From positions 2,404,784 through 2,468,783 of the forward strand of contig JAKVOU010000001.1 in NCBI GenBank assembly GCA_022482625.1: a stretch of DNA of 64,000 bases, read 5' to 3'. The position numbers and the translations under genes were made by a program. The notes beneath the pieces were generated by a model that worked only from the letters and a program-made list of their open reading frames with translations, did no database searches and had not been told where the DNA came from. Source of the DNA: Spirochaetia bacterium. GTDB taxonomy: Bacteria > Spirochaetota > Spirochaetia > Sphaerochaetales > Sphaerochaetaceae. This document shows positions 43,277 to 59,436 of this stretch, piece by piece (within the stretch, counting starts at the first letter, position 1; every line of letters starts with the position of its first letter).

Positions 43277-45094
43277 TTATGGTAATTCTGGAATCATTTT
43301 TATTGGTTCAGAAAGGATGAATTCTCTTTTTAATGTTGTCCAACATATTTCTGTTTTTGCATATTCTCCTAGAGATTTACCATTTGCATGGCTAAATAGA
43401 AAATCATAAACTTCTTTACCCCATATTTTTATTTGATCAATAAAACTATCGGATATTTGCTGATTATCCCAAACCATTTTTAAATTAAGTCTATCTTTAT
43501 ATTTTTCACTGATAATTGAAAGTAAAGCAATTCTTACTCCACTTGGGCTTTGGGGACAGATATTACCTTTTAAAAGATAAAAACTTTTTCGATATACTAT
43601 ATATTGTGCTAATCGGTCTTTCACATATTGAGGATCAATTTTTTTCGACTCATCATTTAAATAGTTTTTCATGGCAACAAGACATTTTTCGCCACCTAAT
43701 GCAGCAAATTTAGGTTTCCCATCCCATGTTGCAATACACATGGACAAATCAGTTTTTTTCTGGATTCTTCGAGATGGTGGAATTATTTTTGATAGGATTC
43801 TACGGCGTTCATATGGAGATTTTGCAGTAAAATTTAAATATGTATTGAAACTACCTGCAGCTCTTTCATAGAACCATTTGCCATTACCATCTGGACAGGT
43901 AATAGTTTTAAGTACTTTTTCAAAATTAATATGAAACAATGCATGTGCCTCAAAGTCTGATTTCTTTATGGCATTCTGTAAATTGGAATATCTTGAGACA
44001 TTTGATACGAAACTATTATCTTCTTCATCCCGTTCTTTTGAATTAAAAATAATAATTTTGGCGGCAACGCGGACTTCATTTAATTGGATTGCATCATTGT
44101 CTCTTTTTGAGAAATATATTGACGCTGTAGTTTGTCCTCCATTAACGATTTGGGCTGCATGTAATTGTAATAGAATGACACCCCTTTGATTGTTTTGTAT
44201 TATTGCCTTATCTGCGACAATAACCAATCCGTTATTATATGCCATGAAACGTCTCGGCGTGGTTGTGAGAGTATCTTTAATGCCAGAATTAACCACTCTT
44301 TTTGTACTTAAAAATGATCGAACATTTGCTTCAAGTAACTGATCTCTGTATTTACTGTAGATTGAATAAATCACATTTCCTGGAATTGCAGTCAAAGCAT
44401 AATCATATTCATCATCTTTTGAACGGGGAACATAAACACAAGGAAGTCCGGATCCTAATAGTTTTTCAAAATCAATAATAATAGAATCCTGAGGTTTTCC
44501 TTCAATTGATTGTTTATACCATAAATCTGAATCAAAAATATTTATTGAGATTTCAATATTTTCAGCTTTCTGTGTGGCAAAACTTTTAATTTTTGAAACA
44601 CAGTTGGTAATTACTGTAATTCTAATATTTTTACATTCATTTCCATATTCTCTGAAAATCATGGCCAAGTCTGATTCTGACGTTCCTTTTGTTAACTGAC
44701 TTACAAAATTGCTCGTATTGTCTAGACTACAGGCAATAAAATAATAAGCAGCCGTAACCTCTTTTTGAATTTCTTGATTTGTTAGTTGAATTATATTTCC
44801 AGTGCTATCACGATAAATGCAAGTAATAATATCTATTCCCTTGGAAATATCTTCATCATCATCTAATGCATATCCAAAAATTTTAATTTTTTTATTTCTA
44901 TAATTACCTTCATAATAACAGTCTTTAAAATCTCCAACCAAAGCTCCATTTTCAGATAAGTAATTAGCAGCCATTTCGCAATATATAACTTGCTGGTAAG
45001 GGTATGGAGAAGAAGTAGAAATCATCATCTCATTACGACGTTGCGCTAGTTCTTCTCTTTGTTCTTTTAAGAAAGTTTCAAAATCAATAGCCAT
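43277..45094 (-). CDS. AIPR-family protein (abortive phage infection related)
   Basis: 605 residues. The AIPR core runs about residues 245-420: 'EANVRSFLSTKRVVNSGIK' (about 255-273), 'RRFMAYNNGLVIVAD' (about 281-295) and 'AQIVNGGQTTASIY' (about 314-327), the best-conserved blocks of the family. AIPR proteins are found in phage-defence operons and are thought to act in abortive infection; their biochemistry is unclear. It is the last gene of a six-gene minus-strand operon, 1 bp after the PD-(D/E)XK gene. The gene is AT-rich like the rest of the island. Confidence 0.9.
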   Translation of the reverse strand: MAIDFETFLKEQREELAQRRNEMMISTSSPYPYQQVIYCEMAANYLSENGALVGDFKDCYYEGNYRNKKIKIFGYALDDDEDISKGIDIITCIYRDSTGNIIQLTNQEIQKEVTAAYYFIACSLDNTSNFVSQLTKGTSESDLAMIFREYGNECKNIRITVITNCVSKIKSFATQKAENIEISINIFDSDLWYKQSIEGKPQDSIIIDFEKLLGSGLPCVYVPRSKDDEYDYALTAIPGNVIYSIYSKYRDQLLEANVRSFLSTKRVVNSGIKDTLTTTPRRFMAYNNGLVIVADKAIIQNNQRGVILLQLHAAQIVNGGQTTASIYFSKRDNDAIQLNEVRVAAKIIIFNSKERDEEDNSFVSNVSRYSNLQNAIKKSDFEAHALFHINFEKVLKTITCPDGNGKWFYERAAGSFNTYLNFTAKSPYERRRILSKIIPPSRRIQKKTDLSMCIATWDGKPKFAALGGEKCLVAMKNYLNDESKKIDPQYVKDRLAQYIVYRKSFYLLKGNICPQSPSGVRIALLSIISEKYKDRLNLKMVWDNQQISDSFIDQIKIWGKEVYDFLFSHANGKSLGEYAKTEICWTTLKREFILSEPIKMIPELP

Positions 45095-45095
45095 A

Positions 45096-46118
45096 TTATT
45101 CCTTCCAATTTAAATTTTGCATCGTAAATGGTAAATATTTAAGATTTTCTGTTAATTTTATTTCATATTTTGCTGATTCGATTCCAGCCATTGTGTTTTC
45201 ACCTGTGATACGGGGAAAATATTCATTAATTGGATATAATTTAATATCTTCTAGTGAAAACCTTTCAGAATATTCATTTGTATATAAATCAATATAACCT
45301 ATTTTTAATAATAAATTTTCAAATTTAGCTTCTACTTCAGCATTTTCTTTAATTAAATTTCTTGTTTCTTGAATTATTTCTGGCAAAGATTTTCCTAGTT
45401 TACTAATTGTAACTATCACCAATGCAAGAAATAATTGTGGAGTATCGGATGAATCCAATTGTTCGATTGAACTGATTTGGATTTTTTTCTTTCCTTTTAT
45501 ATTTGTTTTTACTTCAATTGCAAATTTGTCAAATAAAAAATCTTTTGAACTATGATTTGGACCTTGCCATCCGTTTACTATAGAAGAAACGTCTAAGTCG
45601 AATGTAAATAATTTGTTTATGATAGTTAATTCCCCCCATAAACCTAATTGTTGTTCGAAAGATAATCTATTGGAGATATCAAAAGCAAAAAAATGTTGCC
45701 ATTCCTTTATACGACTTAGTAATAAAATAGAAAGATGATAACTGCTGGTTACATTGTCGCATTCTTTGAGGAATTTATATAAATCTTCAACAACATTCAA
45801 AAAAATACTTTCTACATCTTCGTTTTTACATATCATAGCAAGCCAAACATAATTTTTGTCGAAATTTTCAGCTGATATAGGCAAAATAGTCATGCCACTT
45901 GATTCTGACATTGTTCTTTGGTCTGAAAAAGTAGAAAAAGCTAATCCCTTTAGAATTCCAATAAAAATTGTAGGCTTTGACTGGGGGAAATTTATTCCAC
46001 ATCGAATTTCATAAAGTTTTCCTGTTTCTAAACGAATATGATAATATCCAGGTTCTTGTAACTTCTTTTGTTGTATTGAGTACCAACCCTGTATAATTTG
46101 TTCTCTAAAGCTATTCAT
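45096..46118 (-). CDS. PD-(D/E)XK motif protein (DUF4420-like), predicted nuclease
   Basis: 340 residues from ATG 46118, which lies inside the Z1 stop region and is preceded by GTGAGG; an earlier ATG at 46142 lacks a site. The catalytic pattern is visible: 'GLWGELTII' (Glu, about 159-167), 'SSKDFLFD' (Asp, about 191-198), 'IEVKTN' (Glu-x-Lys, about 201-206), then 'QISSIEQL'. Together these form a PD-(D/E)XK nuclease core. In this operon class it is the likely restriction nuclease. The DNA sequence cut is unknown. Confidence 0.88.
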   Translation of the reverse strand: MNSFREQIIQGWYSIQQKKLQEPGYYHIRLETGKLYEIRCGINFPQSKPTIFIGILKGLAFSTFSDQRTMSESSGMTILPISAENFDKNYVWLAMICKNEDVESIFLNVVEDLYKFLKECDNVTSSYHLSILLLSRIKEWQHFFAFDISNRLSFEQQLGLWGELTIINKLFTFDLDVSSIVNGWQGPNHSSKDFLFDKFAIEVKTNIKGKKKIQISSIEQLDSSDTPQLFLALVIVTISKLGKSLPEIIQETRNLIKENAEVEAKFENLLLKIGYIDLYTNEYSERFSLEDIKLYPINEYFPRITGENTMAGIESAKYEIKLTENLKYLPFTMQNLNWKE

Positions 46119-48990
46119 TAATTGTATTTTCCTCACTTTCATTTGTTTCAGTCAAAGAATGGATGTATTGCTCATAGAATATATGATTTACAGAATAGGT
46201 ATGTTTGTATTTATTAGGAGTACGGTAATTTGGCATTACAATGGCAAAACCAACGAGCTGAGGTTCATTGTTTCCGTCCATTGGTATAAATGGATAGATA
46301 AGCAGAAGACACTTGTTGATATCTTCATTATCATTTTGAGTTCTTATATATCGGGCTGCAGCACCGGAAATGCTTCCTGGTTTTCTTTCTTTTTGAATTT
46401 GCTGATCAATCTTTTTTGTATAAGCTTTTGCCTCGTCATATTCTTTTTTATTGAAATCAATAAATTCATCCCATGAGTTAGTTAAGACTTTAATACTTAA
46501 AGTATCTTCTTTAGGATTATCTAGGGTCCTTCTGCTGAATTTTATTCCAGGGAATAGATTTGTTTCTTTTCTTGTTTGATCAGCTACTCCGATAATGGCA
46601 ATGTTCCATAGATTTGTAAAGCCTGATTTCTCAGAATCTTTAAGAAACTTTAAAATCGCTAATGGATTAATTGCCACTGAGTTAGGGTGAAGTTGATAAT
46701 TTTTTAAAAATGTAGCAACCTTTTCTAAGGGTATGTTTCTCCAAAGGGCAGCATTCCACTTTCTAAAATCTCTACATGGATTAATTTCAGGGTTATTTGG
46801 TAATGTTTGGATAAATTGTTTTGTTATTTCCCAATTGTGATTTTGTTTTTCTTTATCAGAAGAGAACAAAATAGTCTGTATCATCTTTCCTTCAAAATCA
46901 ACTTCTAGGTTATAGGTATGTTTTGCTTTTGCAGTTGAAGTTGCTCTTAATTTACTATAATTTCTAACTTTAAGTCCATATTCTTTTGGAGTACCTTTTC
47001 CTGTAGCATCAAATAGAATAGCAAATTCCTCCTGAAGTTCTTGTGTTGCATCTGTAATCTTGCAATAAGAGTCTATCAAATCATTTGTAGTATATATCCG
47101 ACATAAATCAAGATATTGTGGCCTATAACCAAACCATCTTCCCATTTGCATGAGGGTATCAAAAGTGTTAGAAGTCCTAATGAAATAACTTATAGTAAGC
47201 CCCTCTAGAGTAAGACCCCTTGAAAATTTATCACCACCTAGTGCAATTACTTTTAAGCCCCTATCTTTTTCCTTTTCATAATCCAATACATCGGAGGAAT
47301 TTCCATTTAACAACTTGGGATTTGCAATGTTTCCCATTACAAGAGGAAGATTTTGTTGTATCTGTTTCCAAGATGCTATAGAAGAAGTTTCGGCACCTAG
47401 TTCTTGATTGTATTGTATCCAGTTTTTAACAAAGTCTTCTTCCCATATTGTTTGTAATCTGTTTAATAATTCAATAAGTCCATCGCCATCATTGTTAATT
47501 AGCCTAATTTTACAATAGTTATCGAAATTAGAAACAACGGTTAATATTTCTTTTTGTACTTTTTGATATCTTGAAACATGGATAAGCATTGAACAATGTT
47601 TGTTTCCCTGTCCACGAAGATATCTCTGAGTACAAACAAGATAAAAAGATAAAATAGCATCTTCCAAGGACTTAGGTAGGCCAGAAACTGTATTTTGCTT
47701 ATTTGGAACCCAATCTGATTTATGTCCTAAAGGTAGCCAATCTTTTTTTTGATATTCTAGTGATCCTCTGGGGACATTTAAAGTATATGTATCATTTATG
47801 TTGCGTACAATAGGTGCTATTAAAGAATTGTTACGTTCTCCGGTTCTTTCATTATGAGTTCCTAAAAGTTTTTCGGGGCCAAAATAAACATCATTATGTT
47901 CTAATGGAACAATAAATGACTGTGGGAACAAATCTGGACCTTCTTTTTTGGTTGTTCCCTTTTCGTGAATAAAAATATTTGCAAATGGTGTTGCTGTGTA
48001 ACCAACATAAGCCGATTTAGTAAAGAAGTAGAGTAGCTGCCTAATTAATGAATTAATTCTTTTAGGATTATATTCTGAATTTGGTTCTCCTTCTTCATCA
48101 ATTGCACCTTCTCCCGTATCAACAGAAGCACTGTCAGATTCATCATCAATCATTAATAGAGGAGAATCTGAACAAACAGGGCGGTTTGTATCTTTTTCGC
48201 AATCGGTAATATAATTTCTTTTTAGCCATTTAAGTAAACTACCTAACACAGATACATTCTTTTTTACTACTAAAAGTAATGGTTGGTGAGAAGCTATGCC
48301 CATATTTTTTGCAATTTTTCGATTAAAATCGCCATGGTCTCCACGAATAGTTACATATTGAGGAGTATGGTCACGATCTACAGGATTTTCTTTTCCAACA
48401 CCTATCACTTTTATAGTATCGTCTGTATCAAAACCATCTGTAGAGTAACCTAAAAAACCTTCTTCAAGGCGAATTTGTGTCTGTTCCCGTAAGCTGTTTG
48501 TCAATCCTGCTAAAACAATGATTACACGATAGCCAACATCTGCTGCTTTACAAATCAGTCCAATATAATTTGCAGTTTTGCCAGATTGGACATTGCCTAC
48601 TACAAGGCCTCTTCTATTCCAGCAATCAGGGCGAGAAGGATTTTCTAGGAGAGAAAGAATTTCTGATGTTGATTTGTCAATTGACGTGATGTCTGTTGGT
48701 CTCAGAGAACGACCTAAGTATTTTTTATATCTTTCCCAAAGCGCCAAATTGGAAGGAATTTCCCAATCAACATGGTCGGTGTTATCCTTGAATATCATTT
48801 CTTTTCTCGACCATATTCCTGCAACTTTAATTAACTCACTGGTTACGTTACTACGATTGTCAGTTGGCGTAAAAAACGCATTAAAATAATCTATCCATTT
48901 TTGGATGTCTCCTATCGATGGGTCATTGGCTAATTCTTTTTGATATAAAATTTCAATGCTCTGACAAATTTTCGTCTCATTTTCAGTCAT
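46111..48990 (-). CDS. Z1-domain helicase-like ATPase
   Basis: 959 residues from ATG 48990 (GAGG 6 nt upstream, overlapping the GHKL stop by 8 bp). Superfamily 2-like motifs in order: P-loop 'GNVQSGKTANYIGL' (about 132-145), 'MIDDESDSAS' (Walker B-like, about 280-289), 'VGYTATPFANI' (about 329-339), 'GGDKFSRGLTLEG' (about 585-597) and 'QMGRWFGYR' (about 615-623, arginine finger motif). The Z1 domain lies in the middle and C-terminal half. It probably translocates or remodels DNA for the nuclease encoded next to it. Confidence 0.92.
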   Translation of the reverse strand: MTENETKICQSIEILYQKELANDPSIGDIQKWIDYFNAFFTPTDNRSNVTSELIKVAGIWSRKEMIFKDNTDHVDWEIPSNLALWERYKKYLGRSLRPTDITSIDKSTSEILSLLENPSRPDCWNRRGLVVGNVQSGKTANYIGLICKAADVGYRVIIVLAGLTNSLREQTQIRLEEGFLGYSTDGFDTDDTIKVIGVGKENPVDRDHTPQYVTIRGDHGDFNRKIAKNMGIASHQPLLLVVKKNVSVLGSLLKWLKRNYITDCEKDTNRPVCSDSPLLMIDDESDSASVDTGEGAIDEEGEPNSEYNPKRINSLIRQLLYFFTKSAYVGYTATPFANIFIHEKGTTKKEGPDLFPQSFIVPLEHNDVYFGPEKLLGTHNERTGERNNSLIAPIVRNINDTYTLNVPRGSLEYQKKDWLPLGHKSDWVPNKQNTVSGLPKSLEDAILSFYLVCTQRYLRGQGNKHCSMLIHVSRYQKVQKEILTVVSNFDNYCKIRLINNDGDGLIELLNRLQTIWEEDFVKNWIQYNQELGAETSSIASWKQIQQNLPLVMGNIANPKLLNGNSSDVLDYEKEKDRGLKVIALGGDKFSRGLTLEGLTISYFIRTSNTFDTLMQMGRWFGYRPQYLDLCRIYTTNDLIDSYCKITDATQELQEEFAILFDATGKGTPKEYGLKVRNYSKLRATSTAKAKHTYNLEVDFEGKMIQTILFSSDKEKQNHNWEITKQFIQTLPNNPEINPCRDFRKWNAALWRNIPLEKVATFLKNYQLHPNSVAINPLAILKFLKDSEKSGFTNLWNIAIIGVADQTRKETNLFPGIKFSRRTLDNPKEDTLSIKVLTNSWDEFIDFNKKEYDEAKAYTKKIDQQIQKERKPGSISGAAARYIRTQNDNEDINKCLLLIYPFIPMDGNNEPQLVGFAIVMPNYRTPNKYKHTYSVNHIFYEQYIHSLTETNESEENTINE

Positions 48991-50488
48991 TGTTTTCCTC
49001 ACCTTGTTTAAATAAAGCAATTGCCTTTTCTATCTGGTCTGGGTAATCATAAAGTAATTCAAATTGAGAAAGTTTTTTTGCTGCTTCAACAATATCACAA
49101 TTGTTGTTTTTCATCCAAACTTTTAGCAAATCTACAATTGCTGAGATTTTTTCATCTTTTTGCTTGTCGAAAATGGTAGTAGAAATACCATTATTCTTTT
49201 CTGATTCACTAATCATTATTTGTCGTACAGGAACGGAAAATTCAATAACTTGTAAAAGTTGTTTTACTACTTCTTTATCAGGATTTGACAATTTAGCAAA
49301 ACAATTTTTTATAAAGGGGCTTTCATTATTAATGAAATAAGAATTATTCCTTTTTATCCAAGGGTTATAGTCCTTTACAGAAACAGTATCATCATTCTTA
49401 CTATATTTGCCACGGTGTAAATATGTCTTTTTTGCTTGTTCTCGTATATCTGTTCCAATTTTCTCTAAAGTAAAGGTGCAATCCTCAGGTGGAAATGCCA
49501 TAGATTTCTTTACATCAATTTTCCAAGCAAAATCATCAGAAGTTTTTATATCTAATTGAATTCTTGCTAATGAATAGGCTTCTTCTTGAATCCAACGAGG
49601 ATTTCCTAAACCTAACCAACTCCCAGCAACAAGGAGTCGTCTATTGCGATAGATATAAAATCCTTCCTGAGAAATCCATCCTTTCTCTCCACCCATTATT
49701 TGATAGAGTTCTGGGGTTGCCACATTTTCATGAGGAGGTAAAATGCAACCTCTTACAAGGACTTTTTTACCAATTCCGATTTTTTCTTCTGGAAAATATC
49801 GTGCTGCAGGATTCTGTCTAGGAAAAGGTGACCAAGGCGATACTGAATTACCGTGTACTGTTAGTTTAAAATTATGGTCTTCAAGGAATCTATGAAAAAC
49901 CATTGCAAGATGAGATTTTACAGAATTTTCTTTTTTCATAAACGTGTCATAGGTTGTGCTTTTGGTAATGATTTTATCAAGATTTTCCCATATTACTATT
50001 GTTCCTGATTCTTTTCCTTTTAATTTTACTAGGCAACTATCGACAAGGGGAGTCGTTCCTTCAAAAATAAATAATTCCTTGCTATTCTTTAAAGATTCTA
50101 GGTCCCAGCGAAAACAATGAGTTTTTCCGTTTTTCTTTGAAACGACAGACAGAATTTTACATTGTGAGAATGAAGCTAATTTTAACCCAAGCCCAAATCG
50201 TCCTAAGTCATTTGGATTACGTAGTGCCGTTATTTCCTTTTGTGAAAAATTCAAAGCACTAATTAACTCTTCTGCATCCATTCCATTTCCATCATCAAGT
50301 ATTTGGACGGAAGGTTCAAAGCCATTGTTTCTTCCCCAAACGAAAGAAACATCGATGTTTTTTGCATTTGCAGCGATACTGTTATCAATTAGATCTGCAA
50401 TTGCCGTCTCAAGAGAATATCCGATTCCTCGTAATGCATAGAGCATAAAAGACAAAGGTGGAATAATTTCTATTTTTTGTTCATTCAC
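48983..50488 (-). CDS. GHKL-family ATPase (HSP90/MutL/MORC-like)
   Basis: About 501 residues. The start is uncertain: GTG 50488 is preferred because AGGAG lies 9 nt upstream and it repeats the 8-bp start/stop overlap of the neighbours; TTG 50512 also has AGGA. GHKL motifs: 'ETAIADLIDNSIAA' (N box, about 27-40), 'DDGNGMDAEEL' (G1, about 65-75) and 'GRFGLGLKLASF' (G2, about 96-107). The remainder is a transducer-like and family-specific domain. MORC/MutL-like ATPases with Z1 proteins are a known hallmark of predicted restriction systems; ATP-driven dimer clamping on DNA is the likely role. Confidence 0.9.
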   Translation of the reverse strand: MNEQKIEIIPPLSFMLYALRGIGYSLETAIADLIDNSIAANAKNIDVSFVWGRNNGFEPSVQILDDGNGMDAEELISALNFSQKEITALRNPNDLGRFGLGLKLASFSQCKILSVVSKKNGKTHCFRWDLESLKNSKELFIFEGTTPLVDSCLVKLKGKESGTIVIWENLDKIITKSTTYDTFMKKENSVKSHLAMVFHRFLEDHNFKLTVHGNSVSPWSPFPRQNPAARYFPEEKIGIGKKVLVRGCILPPHENVATPELYQIMGGEKGWISQEGFYIYRNRRLLVAGSWLGLGNPRWIQEEAYSLARIQLDIKTSDDFAWKIDVKKSMAFPPEDCTFTLEKIGTDIREQAKKTYLHRGKYSKNDDTVSVKDYNPWIKRNNSYFINNESPFIKNCFAKLSNPDKEVVKQLLQVIEFSVPVRQIMISESEKNNGISTTIFDKQKDEKISAIVDLLKVWMKNNNCDIVEAAKKLSQFELLYDYPDQIEKAIALFKQGEENND

Positions 50489-52454
50489 GCTTTTCATCTC
50501 CTGACCAATCAATAAAATATCCTATTAACTTATGATTTACACCCATTTTATTCTCTACTTTTTGTTGTATTTGACGAATTCGTTCCCGTGTTACATTAAA
50601 TGTTTGTCCTATTTCTTCAAGTGTTTCTTCTTTAGTAGTATCAAGTCCATATCGTAAATTAACAATGTTTCTTTTGTCATACACCGCAAGGAGTTTTTTT
50701 TCAATTGTATGCAATATGTTTTTATCCAAATCTGAGATGATTTGTCTTTCCATTTTCCTATTGTCAGATAACTTGTCTGGTGCAATATCCTCATAAGAAA
50801 TAAAGTCAGAGTAATATAAACTAAGTAATTGAGAGGCTATGGGCGATAATGAATGTTTTTTGCAAAATTTAGATGCTGCTAGGTCAATTGTTTTTTTTGT
50901 CGGATTTTTATTTTTCAAATATTTTTTGAATTGATATAATAGAATACCAAAATGTACGGGAAAACTTACTGTTTGGGAATCATTATAGTTATTTTCATCT
51001 AAGGCTCTTCTTTGTACTTGGTCAATCCAGATAATTGCATAGGTCGCAAAACTTGCATTATTATTTAAATCAAATTTTTCTATTGCACGGTATAATCCTT
51101 GGATACCTATTTGAAATAAATCATCCCTATATGTGGAAGCATAACTAGATGTGCGCCAGTAAACTAAATGAATGTTAATCATCATAATTAATTCATCTGT
51201 TTCTTGAAGTTTTTGTATCAGTTGATGTATTTGCATAAATATTTCTTTATTATGGAAATCTGATGACTCTATGAGTACTTCCCAGAATAAAGCAGTAGGA
51301 CCTCCATTTTTAAAGGAAGAAAAGGTTTCTTGTTTGTCTATGAAAATTTCCAAAGCCTTTTTGTCAAAATTTAACGAATTAATGAAAAAGGATGATACCT
51401 TAAAATTTGAGCCAATATTATTTCCTTTTGAAATAGATAATAATATGAAAGAAATTTTTTCTTTTACAGCTAACCATACACAGTCATTTGTTTCTACATA
51501 ATCGAGCAATTGGGAACGAATCTTTTTCCTATCATTGAAAAGTTTTTCGGTGACCCTTTTTTTATCTTTGTTTATAGTTAGGTTATATCCTTTCTTTTGT
51601 AATTTTTTATGAATTTGATTAATACAAATGTACATGGGTTGTGTATCAATTGTTTTTGAATCGATGCTTTCTTGAATAAAATTCTCTTCATTGTTTGTAA
51701 GAAATAACTGTCTATTTTCGCGGGACTTATTTTTTACTTCTTCTTCAAGAATTGTATCATGTAAATCTTCATATAAAAAATCTGAGCTATTTGGGTTCCA
51801 CTTTGATATAATTTTTTCAAGTGTATCATCATGTGGGATTCCCATTTCATATAAAATCATTAATGTTTTATAACAATTTTCTTGACTGCAATTTTGCATG
51901 ATTGCAAAATCTTTTGAAGATACAAAACCTTTTCTTAATCCTTTTCTAAGTATTGTAACTATTTCTTTAGGATAACCCAATTGCGGTAGTTCAAGTTCTT
52001 CAAAATTCCAGTCAATTTCTAAATTATCAAAATTTACAGGGATGTCACAAGAAAGGGTTTTATTTTCTTCGACCAATTGGGAAATAAGGTCTGCATCCTG
52101 CTTTTTTATTATTGGCTCTTCTTCTGGTTCAAAATCAAAGGGTAAATCATTTGCATCATTATTGGTGTTTTGGAGCGGGGTAGAAAGAAGTGCTGCCTTG
52201 ACAAGAGGTGAAAAAGCATAATCACAAGCAGTTTTTCCTTCTTGGTTTAAAATATTGATGTCAGCACCATGATTCAATAAATATGCACAAACCTGTGCAT
52301 CGTCAGTCATAGCGGCTACCATTAAAGGTGTCATACCCCTTTTGTTTTTCTGATTTATATCTATATCACTATTTTCAATGACTTCTTGGATTTTTTCTAG
52401 GTCTTTATGCCTGATTGCAATAAATAAAAAGGGAGACCAAGAAGAATTATTCAC
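50481..52454 (-). CDS. Ankyrin-repeat / sigma-70-like fusion protein
   Basis: 657 residues. Residues about 5-90 form two to three ankyrin repeats ('GMTPLMVAAMTDDAQVCAYL', 'NHGADINILNQEGKTA'). An acidic linker leads to about 163-208, which resembles sigma region 1.1 ('LRKGLRKGFVSSKDF', 'MILYEMGIP'). About 421-485 is sigma region 2 ('DLFQIGIQGLYRAIEKFD', 'SFATYAIIWIDQVQRRA'), then 'VSFPVHFG' as in region 3.0, and about 575-637 is region 4 ('NLRYGLDTTKEETLEEIG', 'VTRERIRQIQQKV'). It overlaps both neighbours by 8 bp. It probably directs RNA polymerase, with the ankyrin part sensing a partner protein. Confidence 0.9.
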   Translation of the reverse strand: MNNSSWSPFLFIAIRHKDLEKIQEVIENSDIDINQKNKRGMTPLMVAAMTDDAQVCAYLLNHGADINILNQEGKTACDYAFSPLVKAALLSTPLQNTNNDANDLPFDFEPEEEPIIKKQDADLISQLVEENKTLSCDIPVNFDNLEIDWNFEELELPQLGYPKEIVTILRKGLRKGFVSSKDFAIMQNCSQENCYKTLMILYEMGIPHDDTLEKIISKWNPNSSDFLYEDLHDTILEEEVKNKSRENRQLFLTNNEENFIQESIDSKTIDTQPMYICINQIHKKLQKKGYNLTINKDKKRVTEKLFNDRKKIRSQLLDYVETNDCVWLAVKEKISFILLSISKGNNIGSNFKVSSFFINSLNFDKKALEIFIDKQETFSSFKNGGPTALFWEVLIESSDFHNKEIFMQIHQLIQKLQETDELIMMINIHLVYWRTSSYASTYRDDLFQIGIQGLYRAIEKFDLNNNASFATYAIIWIDQVQRRALDENNYNDSQTVSFPVHFGILLYQFKKYLKNKNPTKKTIDLAASKFCKKHSLSPIASQLLSLYYSDFISYEDIAPDKLSDNRKMERQIISDLDKNILHTIEKKLLAVYDKRNIVNLRYGLDTTKEETLEEIGQTFNVTRERIRQIQQKVENKMGVNHKLIGYFIDWSGDEKRE

Positions 52455-53686
52455 CTATTTTCTCTCTCTTATTTGAAGTAATAATTGCTTGTATCTTTGT
52501 TGCTGTTTCCTGAATGGCAGGAATAACTACGCTATTTCCTAACTGTCTGTAAGAGCAACCAATACCTTCTTTCATTATAAAACATTTAGGATCATATCCC
52601 ATTAATTGCATGATTTCTGTTAACAACAATTTGCGAGGAGTAACATTTTTGCCTAAATTTACAAGACAATCTGCCCCATCTTTATAATAACGTGCAGAGA
52701 TTGTCCATGCTTTTTGTCCTTCTGGGATAGGATAGGGTAAAAGACAATACCCAAAACCATTATTTCTTGTTTTGTGTTTTTGCTTATGGTTTTGTAAAGC
52801 TTTCCAAGTGCCTAAAGACAATTGTTTGTCTTGGCATGTCAAGTCAATAATATCTCGTAATTGGGGTACTTCATATTTTTGGTTGTTTGGTACTATAGGT
52901 ATTGAGAATTCACTTAAAGCTATTTGTTTTGGATCCCATCCGACGAAAAAAAACTCTTTTCCTTTGCTGGGGAACCCAAGCAGAAGCATCGACTACTGTA
53001 ATGGAGTACAGATAACCAAGTTCTTCAAAAGAGTCTTTGATTACTTGGATTGTTTTACCATTATTATGGGATAAAATGTTTTTTACATTTTCAAGCATAA
53101 ACATTTTCGGTCTTTTTTCTGCTAAGATACGTTTGATTTCAAAAAAGAGCGTTCCTTGTGTTGGGTCATCAAAGCCATGAGGCCTATGCATAGATTCTTT
53201 TTTTGATACACCGGCAATAGAAAAGGGTTGGCAAGGAAAACCTCCGCAAAGGACATCATGATTAGGGATTTCTCTTGCTGGAATATTTCGAATGTTTCCA
53301 TATGGAATAATTCCATAATTATCATTATAAGTTTTTTTTGCTTTTTCATCCCATTCTGAAGAAAATACACAACGACCTCCGACATTCTGAAAGGCTTGAC
53401 GAAAGCCCCCTATACCAGCAAAAAGATCTATAAATGTAAATGCATTGTGTTTGTTTAAAGGATAAGGTACTGGTTCTTTTTCATAATCAATTGATTGAAT
53501 AATTATTTTAATTTCTTGCCATAATTTTTGAGAAATTAAGGGTGGCTTTATAGAACGTAAATGAAGAGCACTTGATACAATCGCAGGAAGTTCTGGAAGT
53601 ATTTCATCTTTTATATCGCATTTATTTTTTATTGTTGTAACAATTTCATCAAATTTCATTTTATTTGTTATTTTAGTATAATACAA
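52447..53686 (-). pseudogene. DNA cytosine-5 methyltransferase, frameshifted at an 8-base homopolymer
   Basis: The first frame (53686-52910) has motif I 'FIDLFAGIGGFRQAF' (about 85-99), catalytic motif IV 'GGFPCQPFS' (about 148-156), 'MLENVKN' and motif VIII 'PQQRKRVFF'. It leaves frame in eight A (52946-52953; T on the coding strand). The second frame supplies 'VGWDPKQ', motif IX 'LTEIMQLMGYDP' and motif X 'RQLGNSVVIPAI' and ends at 52447. Seven bases would give an intact 412-residue enzyme. TTG 53686 is the likely start, with GAGG 5 nt upstream. It should protect host DNA from the linked nuclease. Phase variation, decay and sequencing error are all possible. Confidence 0.9.
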
Positions 53687-53711
53687 AGTTACCTCATTAT
53701 AACTGATATTT

Positions 53712-53769
53712 TCTTTCTAAGAAAGATACATTGACTAAATTATGTCAATCTTGAGAATTCTTTAGAATT
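53712..53769. promoter_or_regulatory. Three stacked inverted repeats upstream of the defence operon
   Basis: TCTTTC-N3-GAAAGA (53712-53726), TTGAC-N8-GTCAA (53731-53748) and AATTCT-N2-AGAATT (53756-53769) fill most of the 90-bp gap before the methyltransferase. Such clustering suggests control by one or more dimeric regulators. A TATAAT at 53696-53701 abuts the ribosome site and is too close to be a normal -10. Confidence 0.5.
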
Positions 53770-53776
53770 ATCTTGT

Positions 53777-54937
53777 TCACAGTTTTCCAATAGTCCGGAA
53801 TATTTCCTGGAATCCTTCTGAAAGGCCTTTGCCAAGGGGATACGTCATATAGTTCAAGTCGTGGTCATGACCGGGGAAAACATGGACGACAAGGTTTGTT
53901 TTCCCAAGTTCCTTGAACGTATCCTTGATATCCAAGGCCCCTTGCATGGGAACATTCCTGTCCTCGGTTCCTTGGAAAATATAGATGGGTATATCAAGTC
54001 GGGGGAGGACTTCACGGTTTGCAGGCATATGGTTCCGATAGTCCATGAACCAGCCGGAGGTCAGACGGACACCGTAATGCGTAGCAATCCACTCATCGTT
54101 CCCTGTATCGATTGCCTCTTTCAACTGGGCAAGATAAGGAGCAAGCATCAGGGCAAAATCGGCAGCATCAAGCTTGCCATCCTTGTTCGTATCCAGTTTT
54201 TCGAAATCATGGTCCATGTCCATGCCTAAGGCAGGGAGGATATGGTATGGATCATCCGAAAATTCCTTTGCGGAAACGGTCCCGTCCTTGTCAGCATCAA
54301 AGTACCGACGATAGAACATCATGCTTGGTATGCCGCTGTTCTGCCATGTGATCGTTTCATCCATCGTGTCGTTCATATATCCAGCCAAGATAAGTGCATC
54401 TACCTGGACTTTCTTTTTCAGTGCTACTTCCGCAGCGACCATGGTACCGCAGCTCCATCCAAGGAGGATGATTTTTGCTGAGTGCAGGCAGGGAATGGCC
54501 TGGAGAGTCCTGATGATAGTTTCTATATCTTGGATTTCATTGGTCGGACGATAGGTCTGGTATAGCTTTTGGTCTATGGTGGAGAATGTAGGTGGCTGGT
54601 CGGAAGGAGTGACTCCACGGGTATCATAGCTGAAGAAACCTGTGCCCTCGTCATTGCATTTTTCAGCAAACAGATCGAAATAGGAAAATACAGTCCCGTC
54701 GCCCAAAGACCGTTTGTTATCGTAGGTATTCGGACCGGAACCATTGACGTAGATTACCAGTTTCTTGACCGGACGTTCCGCTGGCAGGCGTAACCTTCCG
54801 AGGAATGTAACGCCATCGTATGCAGTAATCTTGAGTATCTGGTCAGAAGGACAGGCTTCCTTGGAGCCATCGGTTCCTGCATACAGGACAGAAGACACCA
54901 TCAGAGAAAAAAGCAACAAGACCCACCGTTTTTTCAT
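53777..54937 (-). CDS. Exported alpha/beta hydrolase with an EF-hand pair
   Basis: 386 residues from ATG 54937, where a clear signal peptide begins ('KKRWVLLLFSLMVSSVLYAG'). The longer open frame to 55339 is not credible because it covers a kinase remnant. Nucleophile 'GWSCG' (Ser about 162), acid 'GTEDRNVP' (Asp about 326), base 'FPGHDHDL' (His about 357). Between nucleophile and acid lie two canonical calcium loops, 'DADKDGTVSAKE' (about 214-225) and 'DTNKDGKLDAAD' (about 249-260), placed in the cap. It is probably a periplasmic esterase or peptidase stabilised or switched by calcium. Substrate unknown. Confidence 0.85.
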   Translation of the reverse strand: MKKRWVLLLFSLMVSSVLYAGTDGSKEACPSDQILKITAYDGVTFLGRLRLPAERPVKKLVIYVNGSGPNTYDNKRSLGDGTVFSYFDLFAEKCNDEGTGFFSYDTRGVTPSDQPPTFSTIDQKLYQTYRPTNEIQDIETIIRTLQAIPCLHSAKIILLGWSCGTMVAAEVALKKKVQVDALILAGYMNDTMDETITWQNSGIPSMMFYRRYFDADKDGTVSAKEFSDDPYHILPALGMDMDHDFEKLDTNKDGKLDAADFALMLAPYLAQLKEAIDTGNDEWIATHYGVRLTSGWFMDYRNHMPANREVLPRLDIPIYIFQGTEDRNVPMQGALDIKDTFKELGKTNLVVHVFPGHDHDLNYMTYPLGKGLSEGFQEIFRTIGKL

Positions 54938-54958
54938 GAGTCCAATGATAGGAGGGCA

Positions 54959-55189
54959 TGTAGCTACCGTCAAGTCGATAAATTCCTTACTGCAGAGGAA
55001 ACGGACATGATTGCTGAAAGCGGCAGGATTACCACTCAGATAATGGCGGTTCGCTTCCTTACTGATTACCTTGCCGGAGATATCTATTATCATATTGACC
55101 ATGAAGGACATAACCTTGAGCGTGCAAGGACACAGATTGCTTTGATGCATTCCATGGATGCCCAGTGGAAAAAACTGGCAAAGATATAG
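54959..55189 (+). pseudogene. Remnant C-terminus of an APH/NahK-like sugar kinase
   Basis: About 77 codons in frame to TAG 55189. The peptide contains 'VRFLTDYLAGDIYYHI' and 'HNLERARTQIALMHSMD', the characteristic C-terminal end of phosphotransferase-family kinases such as N-acetylhexosamine 1-kinase. No catalytic domain is present; upstream sequence is occupied by the opposite-strand hydrolase gene. It is a deletion scar, and suggests the defence island or hydrolase replaced an older sugar-utilisation gene. Confidence 0.6.
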
Positions 55190-55535
55190 AAAAATGTTTA
55201 TCTTAAAAGCGGTAGCGCGAGCTTGATATAGATTTTTTCGTAAGAACTTGACTTTAAGTAATCTGTTTGTTAAGTCTTTACTTATGAAACGATTGTTTGA
55301 GAAATGTTTGGTTTTTTGGTATGTCAGCTTTATCAGCAAGGGGTAGCTGTTTTCTGTTGCTGTCAGTATCTGGGGAAGCTTCCTTGGAGGATAGGTCTAT
55401 ATGCGTGTGTCCTATGGATTAGCGTACAAACTGATAGAAAATCAAGTGATTGGATATTGTGTGAAATATGTGTAGTTTATGTTTTATTATTGAAAGAAAA
55501 TGAATGTAGTTTCGCTAATTAGCGTAATTATTTAA
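55190..55535. other. AT-rich intergenic stretch before the first IS1634-like copy
   Basis: 346 bases without a convincing gene, terminator or promoter. CGCTAATTAGCG (55513-55524) is a short perfect palindrome near the IS insertion point. The last seven bases, TATTTAA, are the target duplication of the first IS copy. Confidence 0.6.
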
Positions 55536-57468
55536 TCAGAGTTTTGCAATGCAGGTTTAGTACAAATCCCTCAATCCTTCTTTTTACCGCTTGTTTTCGG
55601 CTTCTTCCTGGAACCGGGCCTTGAACCCTTGGGGATCTCCAGCCCGAACTCGTCGAAGATGTCCACCTGCTTCCCGACGAACTCCGAGACCTTCGGGGAC
55701 CTGCCCCTGAGCTGGACAAGCCTGACAGACCGCATCTCGTCAAGTACGTCCCACGGAGTCGCGAACCGCTTCCTGAAACCATCGCTCGTGGAGAAATAGC
55801 GGGCATGGAGGTAACAGTTGAGGATGAGTGCGACGAACTGGAAGAAGACCCTTCCGTCGGTACTGGGCTCCGTCCAGGTCCGGAGCCTCCTTCCTCCCTG
55901 CCAGCCCTTCAGATACATGAAAGCCTTCTCCTGGGAATCCCGCATCCGGTATTTGGAAAGGACCCACCCAAGCGGATACTCCCGTGCATCCATGTTCGTG
56001 CAGACGATCGCGAAGAACCCGCAGCGTTTCCTGCATCCCGCAATCTTCTCCTCGTCCCTCGAGCAGGAGATGACCGTCCCGTCACCATCGGTCTCGACGG
56101 CAAAGTGCCTGCGGAATTTCTTCAGGAGCCTCTCATCCGGCGCCGGGCCGCCCTCCAGGTGACCGAGGAGGCTCTCCTCCTCGTCAAGCAGCTCCACGGT
56201 GAGCGCCTTGTCCTCTGCGCCTCTGGCCTCGGGATCGAAGAAGAGACAGAGCCTCTGCGGAACCGACGTCCCATGGCCTTTCCCTTCGTTTTCCCTGTAG
56301 CAATAGGGGTACTCGTAATCCTTGGCATAGCAGTCGTGGTCCCTGAGGAACACTCCCCTGGCCGTGATGCTCCCGCTTTCGGAAAGGGCCTCTCCGATGC
56401 ATTTCGTGATCTTTGCGTCACCGGTCTTCGCCATGAATATGGCCCTGATCCCCTCCGGCACGAGGAGATCCAGGTTTTCCTTGCTGAGATACGCCCTGTC
56501 CAGGATGAGGCCGTAGTCACTGAATCCCGCACTCTTGAGTTCCTCCAGCAATAGCCTCAGCGTCCTGGAGTCGGGGATGTTTCCGGGAAGCTTCCGGTAA
56601 TGGGCGGGAAGGCCGGTTTCCATGTCGTACATGACAAGCAGCCCCACCTGCCTTGCGAGGTCGTGTTCCTTGTTCTTCCCCCATCGGGAATCCGCCAGGT
56701 CCCTTGCATGGCTGGATATGCTGGTGCTGTCTATCCCGAACCAGTCGGCAGCCCCGCCCTCGCGTGAGGTGCGGAGTGCCATGAACCGGTCGGCCTGCTC
56801 CTTGGTGACCGACTGCGACAGCCTCGTTATCCTGCTGGAGTCGATCCCTGCGGAAGGATACCACTGGGTTTTTGACGACGACTCGAGCCTGCTGCAGCTG
56901 CGTCCGTAGATGAGCCGGAAGTAGGCGATGGTGAGGATCTCGGCGGTACGCCCGCGACCGAAGACGGTCTCGAGATCCTCCTTCAGCCCGCAGTCGCAGG
57001 CAAGCAGGTCAAGCATGAGGCTGTCGCCGTAGAGCAGGTACCGATCCTCACCCTCGTATGGGGGACCGTCGTCGGGAACCCCTGTACGGTCATACCGGCG
57101 GGACAGGTCCCATGCCTCGGGGAAGAGGAACCTTTCCTTCTCATCGGAAGAAAGAAGCCTGAAGCGGATGTTGGGGATGAAGAGGAAGGGTTCGTCAAGC
57201 TTGCCCCAGACGGTGATGTCGGGGACACGGATGCCCTTCCTGTTGATTTTGGGATCTGTGGTTATCGCATACCTATGGCCGTTTGAACGGAATGCCTTCA
57301 TCCGGTACTTTGCGTTCGGATCCTTCTTCCTGCCCATGCCTGGCCTCCTTTATATGTACTAAAGTTTAATACAAATAAAGAAAAGATTCAAGGCACATAA
57401 CTGCAATCAGACAAGGATATTACATGGTTTTCAGCAATTCATACTAAACCTGTATTGCAAAACTCTGA
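55536..57468. mobile_element. IS1634-like insertion sequence, copy 1 (1933 bp)
   Basis: Terminal inverted repeats of about 27 bp begin TCAGAGTTTTGCAAT and differ at one base. The element is flanked by a TATTTAA direct repeat (55529-55535 and 57469-57475). It holds one minus-strand transposase and is GC-rich against an AT-rich flank. It is identical by eye to copy 2. Confidence 0.93.
55571..57337 (-). CDS. IS1634-family-like transposase, copy 1
   Basis: 588 residues, intact. DDE landmarks: first Asp in 'WFGIDSTSISSHA' (about 201), second in 'LILDRAYLSKENL' (about 285), and Y-R-E-K-type 'YRMRDSQEKAFMYLKG' (about 470-485). The N-terminus is basic, as is the C-terminal tail ('SRKKPKTSGKKKD'). 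AAAGGAGG precedes the ATG. Large size and the beta-rich insert between the second Asp and Glu fit IS1634. Confidence 0.9.
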   Translation of the reverse strand: MGRKKDPNAKYRMKAFRSNGHRYAITTDPKINRKGIRVPDITVWGKLDEPFLFIPNIRFRLLSSDEKERFLFPEAWDLSRRYDRTGVPDDGPPYEGEDRYLLYGDSLMLDLLACDCGLKEDLETVFGRGRTAEILTIAYFRLIYGRSCSRLESSSKTQWYPSAGIDSSRITRLSQSVTKEQADRFMALRTSREGGAADWFGIDSTSISSHARDLADSRWGKNKEHDLARQVGLLVMYDMETGLPAHYRKLPGNIPDSRTLRLLLEELKSAGFSDYGLILDRAYLSKENLDLLVPEGIRAIFMAKTGDAKITKCIGEALSESGSITARGVFLRDHDCYAKDYEYPYCYRENEGKGHGTSVPQRLCLFFDPEARGAEDKALTVELLDEEESLLGHLEGGPAPDERLLKKFRRHFAVETDGDGTVISCSRDEEKIAGCRKRCGFFAIVCTNMDAREYPLGWVLSKYRMRDSQEKAFMYLKGWQGGRRLRTWTEPSTDGRVFFQFVALILNCYLHARYFSTSDGFRKRFATPWDVLDEMRSVRLVQLRGRSPKVSEFVGKQVDIFDEFGLEIPKGSRPGSRKKPKTSGKKKD

Positions 57469-57503
57469 TATTTAATGAAGTACTACCTTTATTATCCTTT
57501 ACA
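57469..57503. other. 35-bp spacer between the two IS copies
   Basis: It carries the right-hand TATTTAA duplication of copy 1 and ends in TTTACA, the left-hand duplication of copy 2. No other feature is seen. Confidence 0.8.
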
Positions 57504-59436
57504 TCAGAGTTTTGCAATGCAGGTTTAGTACAAATCCCTCAATCCTTCTTTTTACCGCTTGTTTTCGGCTTCTTCCTGGAACCGGGCCTTGAACCCTTGG
57601 GGATCTCCAGCCCGAACTCGTCGAAGATGTCCACCTGCTTCCCGACGAACTCCGAGACCTTCGGGGACCTGCCCCTGAGCTGGACAAGCCTGACAGACCG
57701 CATCTCGTCAAGTACGTCCCACGGAGTCGCGAACCGCTTCCTGAAACCATCGCTCGTGGAGAAATAGCGGGCATGGAGGTAACAGTTGAGGATGAGTGCG
57801 ACGAACTGGAAGAAGACCCTTCCGTCGGTACTGGGCTCCGTCCAGGTCCGGAGCCTCCTTCCTCCCTGCCAGCCCTTCAGATACATGAAAGCCTTCTCCT
57901 GGGAATCCCGCATCCGGTATTTGGAAAGGACCCACCCAAGCGGATACTCCCGTGCATCCATGTTCGTGCAGACGATCGCGAAGAACCCGCAGCGTTTCCT
58001 GCATCCCGCAATCTTCTCCTCGTCCCTCGAGCAGGAGATGACCGTCCCGTCACCATCGGTCTCGACGGCAAAGTGCCTGCGGAATTTCTTCAGGAGCCTC
58101 TCATCCGGCGCCGGGCCGCCCTCCAGGTGACCGAGGAGGCTCTCCTCCTCGTCAAGCAGCTCCACGGTGAGCGCCTTGTCCTCTGCGCCTCTGGCCTCGG
58201 GATCGAAGAAGAGACAGAGCCTCTGCGGAACCGACGTCCCATGGCCTTTCCCTTCGTTTTCCCTGTAGCAATAGGGGTACTCGTAATCCTTGGCATAGCA
58301 GTCGTGGTCCCTGAGGAACACTCCCCTGGCCGTGATGCTCCCGCTTTCGGAAAGGGCCTCTCCGATGCATTTCGTGATCTTTGCGTCACCGGTCTTCGCC
58401 ATGAATATGGCCCTGATCCCCTCCGGCACGAGGAGATCCAGGTTTTCCTTGCTGAGATACGCCCTGTCCAGGATGAGGCCGTAGTCACTGAATCCCGCAC
58501 TCTTGAGTTCCTCCAGCAATAGCCTCAGCGTCCTGGAGTCGGGGATGTTTCCGGGAAGCTTCCGGTAATGGGCGGGAAGGCCGGTTTCCATGTCGTACAT
58601 GACAAGCAGCCCCACCTGCCTTGCGAGGTCGTGTTCCTTGTTCTTCCCCCATCGGGAATCCGCCAGGTCCCTTGCATGGCTGGATATGCTGGTGCTGTCT
58701 ATCCCGAACCAGTCGGCAGCCCCGCCCTCGCGTGAGGTGCGGAGTGCCATGAACCGGTCGGCCTGCTCCTTGGTGACCGACTGCGACAGCCTCGTTATCC
58801 TGCTGGAGTCGATCCCTGCGGAAGGATACCACTGGGTTTTTGACGACGACTCGAGCCTGCTGCAGCTGCGTCCGTAGATGAGCCGGAAGTAGGCGATGGT
58901 GAGGATCTCGGCGGTACGCCCGCGACCGAAGACGGTCTCGAGATCCTCCTTCAGCCCGCAGTCGCAGGCAAGCAGGTCAAGCATGAGGCTGTCGCCGTAG
59001 AGCAGGTACCGATCCTCACCCTCGTATGGGGGACCGTCGTCGGGAACCCCTGTACGGTCATACCGGCGGGACAGGTCCCATGCCTCGGGGAAGAGGAACC
59101 TTTCCTTCTCATCGGAAGAAAGAAGCCTGAAGCGGATGTTGGGGATGAAGAGGAAGGGTTCGTCAAGCTTGCCCCAGACGGTGATGTCGGGGACACGGAT
59201 GCCCTTCCTGTTGATTTTGGGATCTGTGGTTATCGCATACCTATGGCCGTTTGAACGGAATGCCTTCATCCGGTACTTTGCGTTCGGATCCTTCTTCCTG
59301 CCCATGCCTGGCCTCCTTTATATGTACTAAAGTTTAATACAAATAAAGAAAAGATTCAAGGCACATAACTGCAATCAGACAAGGATATTACATGGTTTTC
59401 AGCAATTCATACTAAACCTGTATTGCAAAACTCTGA
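57504..59436. mobile_element. IS1634-like insertion sequence, copy 2 (1933 bp)
   Basis: Same length, orientation and ends as copy 1, displaced by 1968 bp. Its own target duplication is TTTACA (57498-57503 and 59437-59442; TTTACA follows CTCTGA). Different duplications at the two copies show independent insertions rather than one tandem duplication. Confidence 0.93.
57539..59305 (-). CDS. IS1634-family-like transposase, copy 2
   Basis: 588 residues, the same protein as the transposase at 55571-57337 as far as can be compared by eye, with the same start context and catalytic motifs. Lack of any difference means one of the two insertions is recent. Confidence 0.9.
   Translation of the reverse strand: MGRKKDPNAKYRMKAFRSNGHRYAITTDPKINRKGIRVPDITVWGKLDEPFLFIPNIRFRLLSSDEKERFLFPEAWDLSRRYDRTGVPDDGPPYEGEDRYLLYGDSLMLDLLACDCGLKEDLETVFGRGRTAEILTIAYFRLIYGRSCSRLESSSKTQWYPSAGIDSSRITRLSQSVTKEQADRFMALRTSREGGAADWFGIDSTSISSHARDLADSRWGKNKEHDLARQVGLLVMYDMETGLPAHYRKLPGNIPDSRTLRLLLEELKSAGFSDYGLILDRAYLSKENLDLLVPEGIRAIFMAKTGDAKITKCIGEALSESGSITARGVFLRDHDCYAKDYEYPYCYRENEGKGHGTSVPQRLCLFFDPEARGAEDKALTVELLDEEESLLGHLEGGPAPDERLLKKFRRHFAVETDGDGTVISCSRDEEKIAGCRKRCGFFAIVCTNMDAREYPLGWVLSKYRMRDSQEKAFMYLKGWQGGRRLRTWTEPSTDGRVFFQFVALILNCYLHARYFSTSDGFRKRFATPWDVLDEMRSVRLVQLRGRSPKVSEFVGKQVDIFDEFGLEIPKGSRPGSRKKPKTSGKKKD

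Follow-up and report, generated by a model that had tools for sequence, protein, structure and literature searches.

Based on profile searches, structure comparison and a survey of related loci, we found that the ankyrin-sigma gene of the analysed 64,000-nucleotide stretch of DNA (the window) is a divergent mzaA within an MZA-type anti-phage operon, and we see an even chance that it encodes a functional RpoD-like sigma factor that is gated by an exchangeable ankyrin adaptor. The MZA anti-phage system reportedly goes back to Gao et al. 2020. The best PADLOC and NCBIfam matches of five adjacent genes in the window were MzaA, MzaB, MzaC, MzaD and MzaE (NF041931-NF041935 and PDLC02203-02207; sigma-70, GHKL ATPase, Z1, PD-(D/E)XK and AIPR, respectively), in that order and on the same strand, and the first of them joins an ankyrin N-terminus and the sigma regions in one protein directly before mzaB. 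The initial annotation, which had given the coordinates and the length of this reading frame exactly and had placed it inside a phage-defence operon, was borne out in this respect by the match to the MZA genes A-E; the core- and promoter-binding residues are also retained. It had also regarded the arrangement as little studied, which did not hold because the protein corresponds to MzaA (NCBIfam NF041931, PADLOC PDLC02203) of a known system. The NCBIfam equivalog cut-offs, which are NCBI naming thresholds and not a biological criterion, were not reached by any of the five proteins (score/cut-off: MzaA 168/800, MzaB 399/850, MzaC 802/1500, MzaD 189/420 and MzaE 456/1050); judged by these matches, the window operon is of the MZA type and divergent, i.e., a distant homologue and not a named equivalog. 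The five protein families and the gene order are those of the MZA system, while a C5 methyltransferase that precedes mzaA, an unusually diverged sigma part and scores far below the cut-offs set the window operon apart. MZA has been termed a validated, recently discovered system, and MZA-like Type II operons without MzaA have been described (PMC9523054), as have GHKL-ATPase/MORC restriction operons with AIPR (PMC2292703). Both of these share the GHKL ATPase, AIPR and cytosine methyltransferase with the window operon but, unlike it, most of them have no ankyrin-sigma protein.

Table 1. Features of the operon and of the ankyrin-sigma protein (window positions; residues are those of the MzaA-like protein).
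Feature	Position	Strand	Details and basis
C5-cytosine DNA methyltransferase, two overlapping frames	52447..53686	-	Pfam DNA_methylase on each half
8-base homopolymer, site of the methyltransferase frame break	52946..52953		
mzaA-like gene	50481..52454	-	657 aa, GTG start; ankyrin, region 1.1-like domain and sigma regions 1.2-4
Ankyrin repeat domain, residues 4-93	52176..52445	-	Pfam Ank_2 6e-12, predicted structure
Acidic linker, residues 100-160, motif (F/W)E.E.E ... DW......LP	51975..52157	-	Family alignment block
Sigma region 1.1-like domain, residues 163-217	51804..51968	-	hhalign 90.5%, E 1.4e-6
Sigma region 2, residues 403-491	50982..51248	-	Pfam Sigma70_r2 7e-8
Sigma region 3, residues 500-549; region 3.2 finger after it shortened	50808..50957	-	Structure alignment, residue table
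Sigma region 4, residues 592-636, with an intact -35 recognition helix (TRERIRQI)	50547..50681	-	Pfam Sigma70_r4 5e-10
mzaB-like GHKL ATPase	48983..50497	-	PADLOC MzaB 2e-98, NCBIfam MzaB 2e-119; ATPase motifs intact
mzaC-like Z1-domain helicase/ATPase	46111..49020	-	PADLOC MzaC 3e-195, NCBIfam MzaC 7e-241; motifs intact
mzaD-like PD-(D/E)XK nuclease (DUF4420)	45096..46142	-	PADLOC MzaD 8e-28, NCBIfam 1e-55; D...ExK motif intact
mzaE-like AIPR protein	43277..45094	-	PADLOC MzaE 2e-102, NCBIfam 2e-136

The N-terminal ankyrin repeats proposed earlier were recovered by Pfam Ank_2 at residues 10-81, and Sigma70_r2 (residues 443-485) and Sigma70_r4 (residues 595-632) were likewise matched above the curated cut-offs, which, together with the presence of the core and -35 contacts, places the protein in the sigma-70 family. 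The initial annotation had reported good matches to regions 2, 3.0 and 4; those to regions 2 and 4 stood, while region 3, which Pfam reached in 27/37 relatives, lay below Pfam detection in the window protein and was aligned by predicted structure. Sigma regions 1.2 to 4 occupy residues about 265-641, and the predicted model of this part aligned with residues 93-602 of the E. coli sigma70. The model was built from 35 sequences and its whole-model quality was moderate (pLDDT 70.2, pTM 0.48), and the domain arrangement was not interpreted; the ankyrin domain was confidently modelled (pLDDT mostly at least 89) and matched the ankyrin protein Bd3460 with an rmsd of 1.6 A over 90 residues. The suggested resemblance to sigma region 1.1 proved to be real as judged by profile-profile comparison, in which residues 163-217 were aligned with RpoD region 1.1 at the probability given in Table 1, whereas four further segments of MzaA and 100 column-shuffled controls all remained at or below 0.4%. 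In fold searches with this piece alone, region 1.1 of B. subtilis SigA headed the VIA list with a weak score (Z 4.8) and was ranked fifth by Foldseek (E 7.1), and the region 1.1 claim therefore rests on the profile test. The acidic linker motif between the ankyrin and the sigma parts is kept in most MzaA proteins. Readings of the fusion as an artefact of chance or of the frame, or as unique to the source genome, were considered and dropped.

A residue table in the E. coli RpoD numbering showed near-invariance of the core and -35 contacts across the MzaA proteins. The core contacts D403 and Q406 were present in 35/36 and 36/36 of them, respectively; among the -10 residues, F427, W434, Q437 and R441 were found in 36/36 and Y430 in 32/36, and R584, E585, R586, R588 and Q589, which contact the -35 element, were invariant (36/36). 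The residues of the region 3.2 finger were often missing across MzaA. The statement that the region 2 and 4 residues are well preserved in the window protein could be upheld in part: Q406, F427, Y430, W434, Q437, R441 and all five -35 residues are retained, but substitutions were found at five positions (W433I, R436D, T440R, R451S and E458I) and the finger residues are absent. Transcription initiation by the window protein may be altered or defective, since both the finger and several of the residues for melting and extended -10 recognition have been lost. Codon comparison in five pairs of relatives, which do not include the window protein because no close relative of it was found for such a test, gave a dN/dS of about 0.04-0.13 for sigma regions 2-4 and thus strongly purifying selection; the ankyrin part gave 0.09-0.10 in the two pairs where it was readable. 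The window protein shares regions 1.1, 1.2, 2, 3 and 4 as well as the principal core and -35 contacts with RpoD/SigA, and differs in its N-terminal ankyrin module and acidic linker and in that the genome retains a separate RpoD (C1:395057, 398 bits). With 82 bits against the RpoD model, it falls far short of the RpoD_Cterm cut-off of 354 for a primary (group 1) sigma factor, while other MzaA proteins scored up to 358. Over regions 2-4, it is 25% identical to the RpoD of E. coli. Its sigma part, which is 27% identical to the RpoD of its own genome, has diverged more than any other in the set and forms the longest branch in the sigma tree.

The distribution of MzaA was analysed in the best 80 loci from an MzaC-alignment scan of bacterial and archaeal genomes, to which locus L044 and two plasmid loci were added. 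A sigma gene stood directly before mzaB in 36 loci of this set beside the window, and thus the domain order whose recurrence next to Z1 and GHKL genes had been proposed as a check was found repeatedly, nearly always with ankyrin repeats. Among these 37 proteins, including that of the window, sigma region 4 was detected in 37, region 2 in 36 and ankyrin repeats in 32. These counts, together with the MzaA clade on the MzaC tree, indicate that the ankyrin-sigma fusion is the normal form of MzaA; it is also not new, since NCBIfam names MzaA a sigma-70 factor and its MzaA model matches the ankyrin part as well. MzaA was absent from 37 of the 74 scorable loci, and on the MzaC tree its presence was limited to a single clade in which it had been lost once (L070), i.e., two changes, a number as low as which was reached in none of 500 shuffles. 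Neither MzaA nor its ankyrin repeats are indispensable, as L070 is an A-clade system without MzaA and three other A-clade systems have no ankyrin repeats. No relatives were found in viral contigs, and among the best matches listed in a plasmid tblastn search with MzaA as the query there were only ordinary sigma factors, the MzaC query being more useful. Some MzaA proteins extend behind sigma region 4: those of L066, L079, L082, L089, L092 and L096 share a recurrent extra domain at the C-terminus, which is about 60 residues long and closes with GKGYW(K/R/L), and that of L088 (4908-7343) ends in a GcrA-like domain recognised by its sequence motif, Pfam GcrA being matched in 1/37 MzaA proteins.

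Pairwise comparison of the systems revealed that both parts of MzaA are exchanged. The systems of a Pseudomonas (L084) and a Paracoccus (L088) are 86-93% identical in MzaB-E and 67% in the sigma part, yet only 25% in the ankyrin part, while the ankyrin part of L084 is 74% identical to that of another Pseudomonas (L067), even though their MzaB-E share only 36-54%. A third system, L081, has no ankyrin part at all; its MzaB-E are 87-92% identical to those of L084 and its sigma part is 96% identical to that of L088. Such exchange of ankyrin modules between similar operons suggests a variable binding partner. Protein sensing and the recognition of phage proteins, as proposed by the initial annotation, are putative. 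The opposite pattern was observed in L091 and L074, whose ankyrin parts are 65-74% identical to those of L067 and L068, which their linkers also resemble, while their sigma parts are only 41% and 44% identical to L067 and L068 but 81% and 74% identical to betaproteobacterial RpoD, respectively, and nest inside the betaproteobacterial RpoDs (tree support 97/99). By these comparisons, the sigma part has been replaced by an RpoD-like sigma factor in at least these two betaproteobacterial systems. Monophyly of all MzaA sigma parts was compatible with the full data (AU p 0.085) but not with a reduced set from which the longest branches had been removed (p 0.005), a set that was chosen post hoc after the tree had been seen; long branches also leave L061 and L062 without a firm place in the tree, and RpoD capture is therefore claimed only for L091 and L074. 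Repeated capture of RpoD by MzaA is likely, though not proven. In the literature searched, we found no report of ankyrin exchange or loss among near-identical operons or of RpoD capture. Taken together, the exchange of both parts points to a modular sensor that is wired to the host RNA polymerase.

In the reading that we prefer, MzaA is a sigma factor derived from RpoD that carries an ankyrin module at its N-terminus, followed by the acidic linker and the region 1.1-like domain. Given its RpoD-like contacts, the sigma part would be expected to bind the core RNA polymerase of the host as well as promoter DNA of the sigma70 type. The ankyrin module, in turn, would bind a variable partner, which may come from the phage, be an inhibitor or belong to the MZA proteins themselves, and would thereby control the timing or the site of sigma action during infection, in concert with MzaB-E as the ATPase, helicase and nuclease machinery. 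What speaks against this reading is that MzaA, with DNA-contact residues like those of RpoD, would not obviously have a regulon of its own, that some systems do without MzaA or without ankyrin repeats, that no promoter was found upstream of the window operon and that the window protein has lost several residues that matter for initiation. More tentatively, with perhaps one chance in a few, the protein could be an immune receptor of modular build: its exchangeable ankyrin module would be combined with an RpoD copy that some lineages renew from that of the host, and an attack on the host polymerase during infection, or its takeover, would be sensed or countered and then signalled to MzaB-E. Many phages are well known to encode anti-sigma proteins, and the RpoD copy in MzaA might be a decoy that is bound by phage proteins attacking sigma70 or the polymerase, with the ankyrin and linker relaying the event and triggering MzaB-E. 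Such a decoy would agree with the apparently repeated capture of sigma parts from RpoD within the host lineage, and with the replacement of the sigma part next to an ankyrin-linker part that has remained of the MzaA type. It would, however, have no need for an invariant -35 helix and -10 contacts, and most MzaA sigma parts are far from the host RpoD, that of the window above all, which makes this explanation doubtful; the conserved DNA contacts favour transcription or a tethering role over a decoy.

The operon runs on the minus strand in the order MTase-A-B-C-D-E, and the catalytic motifs of MzaB-E are intact in comparison with 35 relatives. As the initial annotation had stated, the mzaA-like gene is coupled to its neighbours: its reading frame, which begins with GTG at 52454, overlaps the end of the methyltransferase (stop at 52449-52447), and the likeliest start of the mzaB-like gene is ATG 50497, which lies within the 3' end of the mzaA-like gene, rather than the TTG at 50512 that opens the frame. 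The sigma part could serve to bring the MZA nuclease/helicase complex to phage promoter DNA or to the transcribing polymerase without any new transcription being needed, which would agree with the position of mzaA directly before mzaB in the A-clade and with the intact motifs of the nuclease- and helicase-like proteins; this is nevertheless unlikely, as the A-less clade, if functional, does without MzaA. It is very unlikely that MzaA only drives its own operon: the core and -35 contacts are conserved, as this would require, but RpoD could serve the same promoters with its similar contact residues, the ankyrin module would be left unexplained and no sigma70-type promoter was found on the minus strand at 53600-53900, upstream of the operon. 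The idea that the operon is switched on by MzaA from 53687-53776 found no support, the plus-strand promoter matches in the upstream region being no more than chance would give; several imperfect palindromes were seen there, none of them distinctive. The methyltransferase that had been described as adjoining is present but consists of two overlapping frames (52910-53686 and 52447-52989) that are broken at the homopolymer. Its relative in L044, from the same family as the source, is one intact frame of 402 aa that is followed by A-B-C-D-E, and the break may be a real frameshift, phase variation or an assembly error. Least probable of all is that the locus is decaying in the source genome, for which the frame break, the low RpoD score and the longest branch in the tree would speak, because the reading frames of MzaA and MzaB-E are open over their full length, their catalytic and -35 motifs are intact and the homopolymer indel has the other possible causes just named. 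Directly upstream of the operon lies an alpha/beta hydrolase gene with EF-hand/dockerin-like calcium loops (53777-55339, minus strand), and two identical IS1634-family transposase genes are arranged in tandem at 55535-59305, 1968 bases from start to start. The source genome also contains a second MZA-like operon about 30 kb outside the window (L051 6855-15735; C1 about 2365854-2374734), which consists of B-C-D-E and a methyltransferase without MzaA.

The MZA system is known for defence, while the role of its sigma-factor subunit is unexplained in the open literature searched, where no study of MzaA function was found. The ankyrin-sigma fusion itself was already known as MzaA; what is new, although inferential, is the evolutionary picture of the least understood MZA subunit. 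For the preferred reading of a sigma factor gated by its ankyrin module, the conservation of contacts, the exchange of ankyrin modules and the capture of RpoD lead to specific, testable predictions: MzaA would bind the polymerase and -35 DNA, the ankyrin module would set the partner or phage specificity, and the RpoD-derived sigma parts of MzaA would be interchangeable with that of the host.
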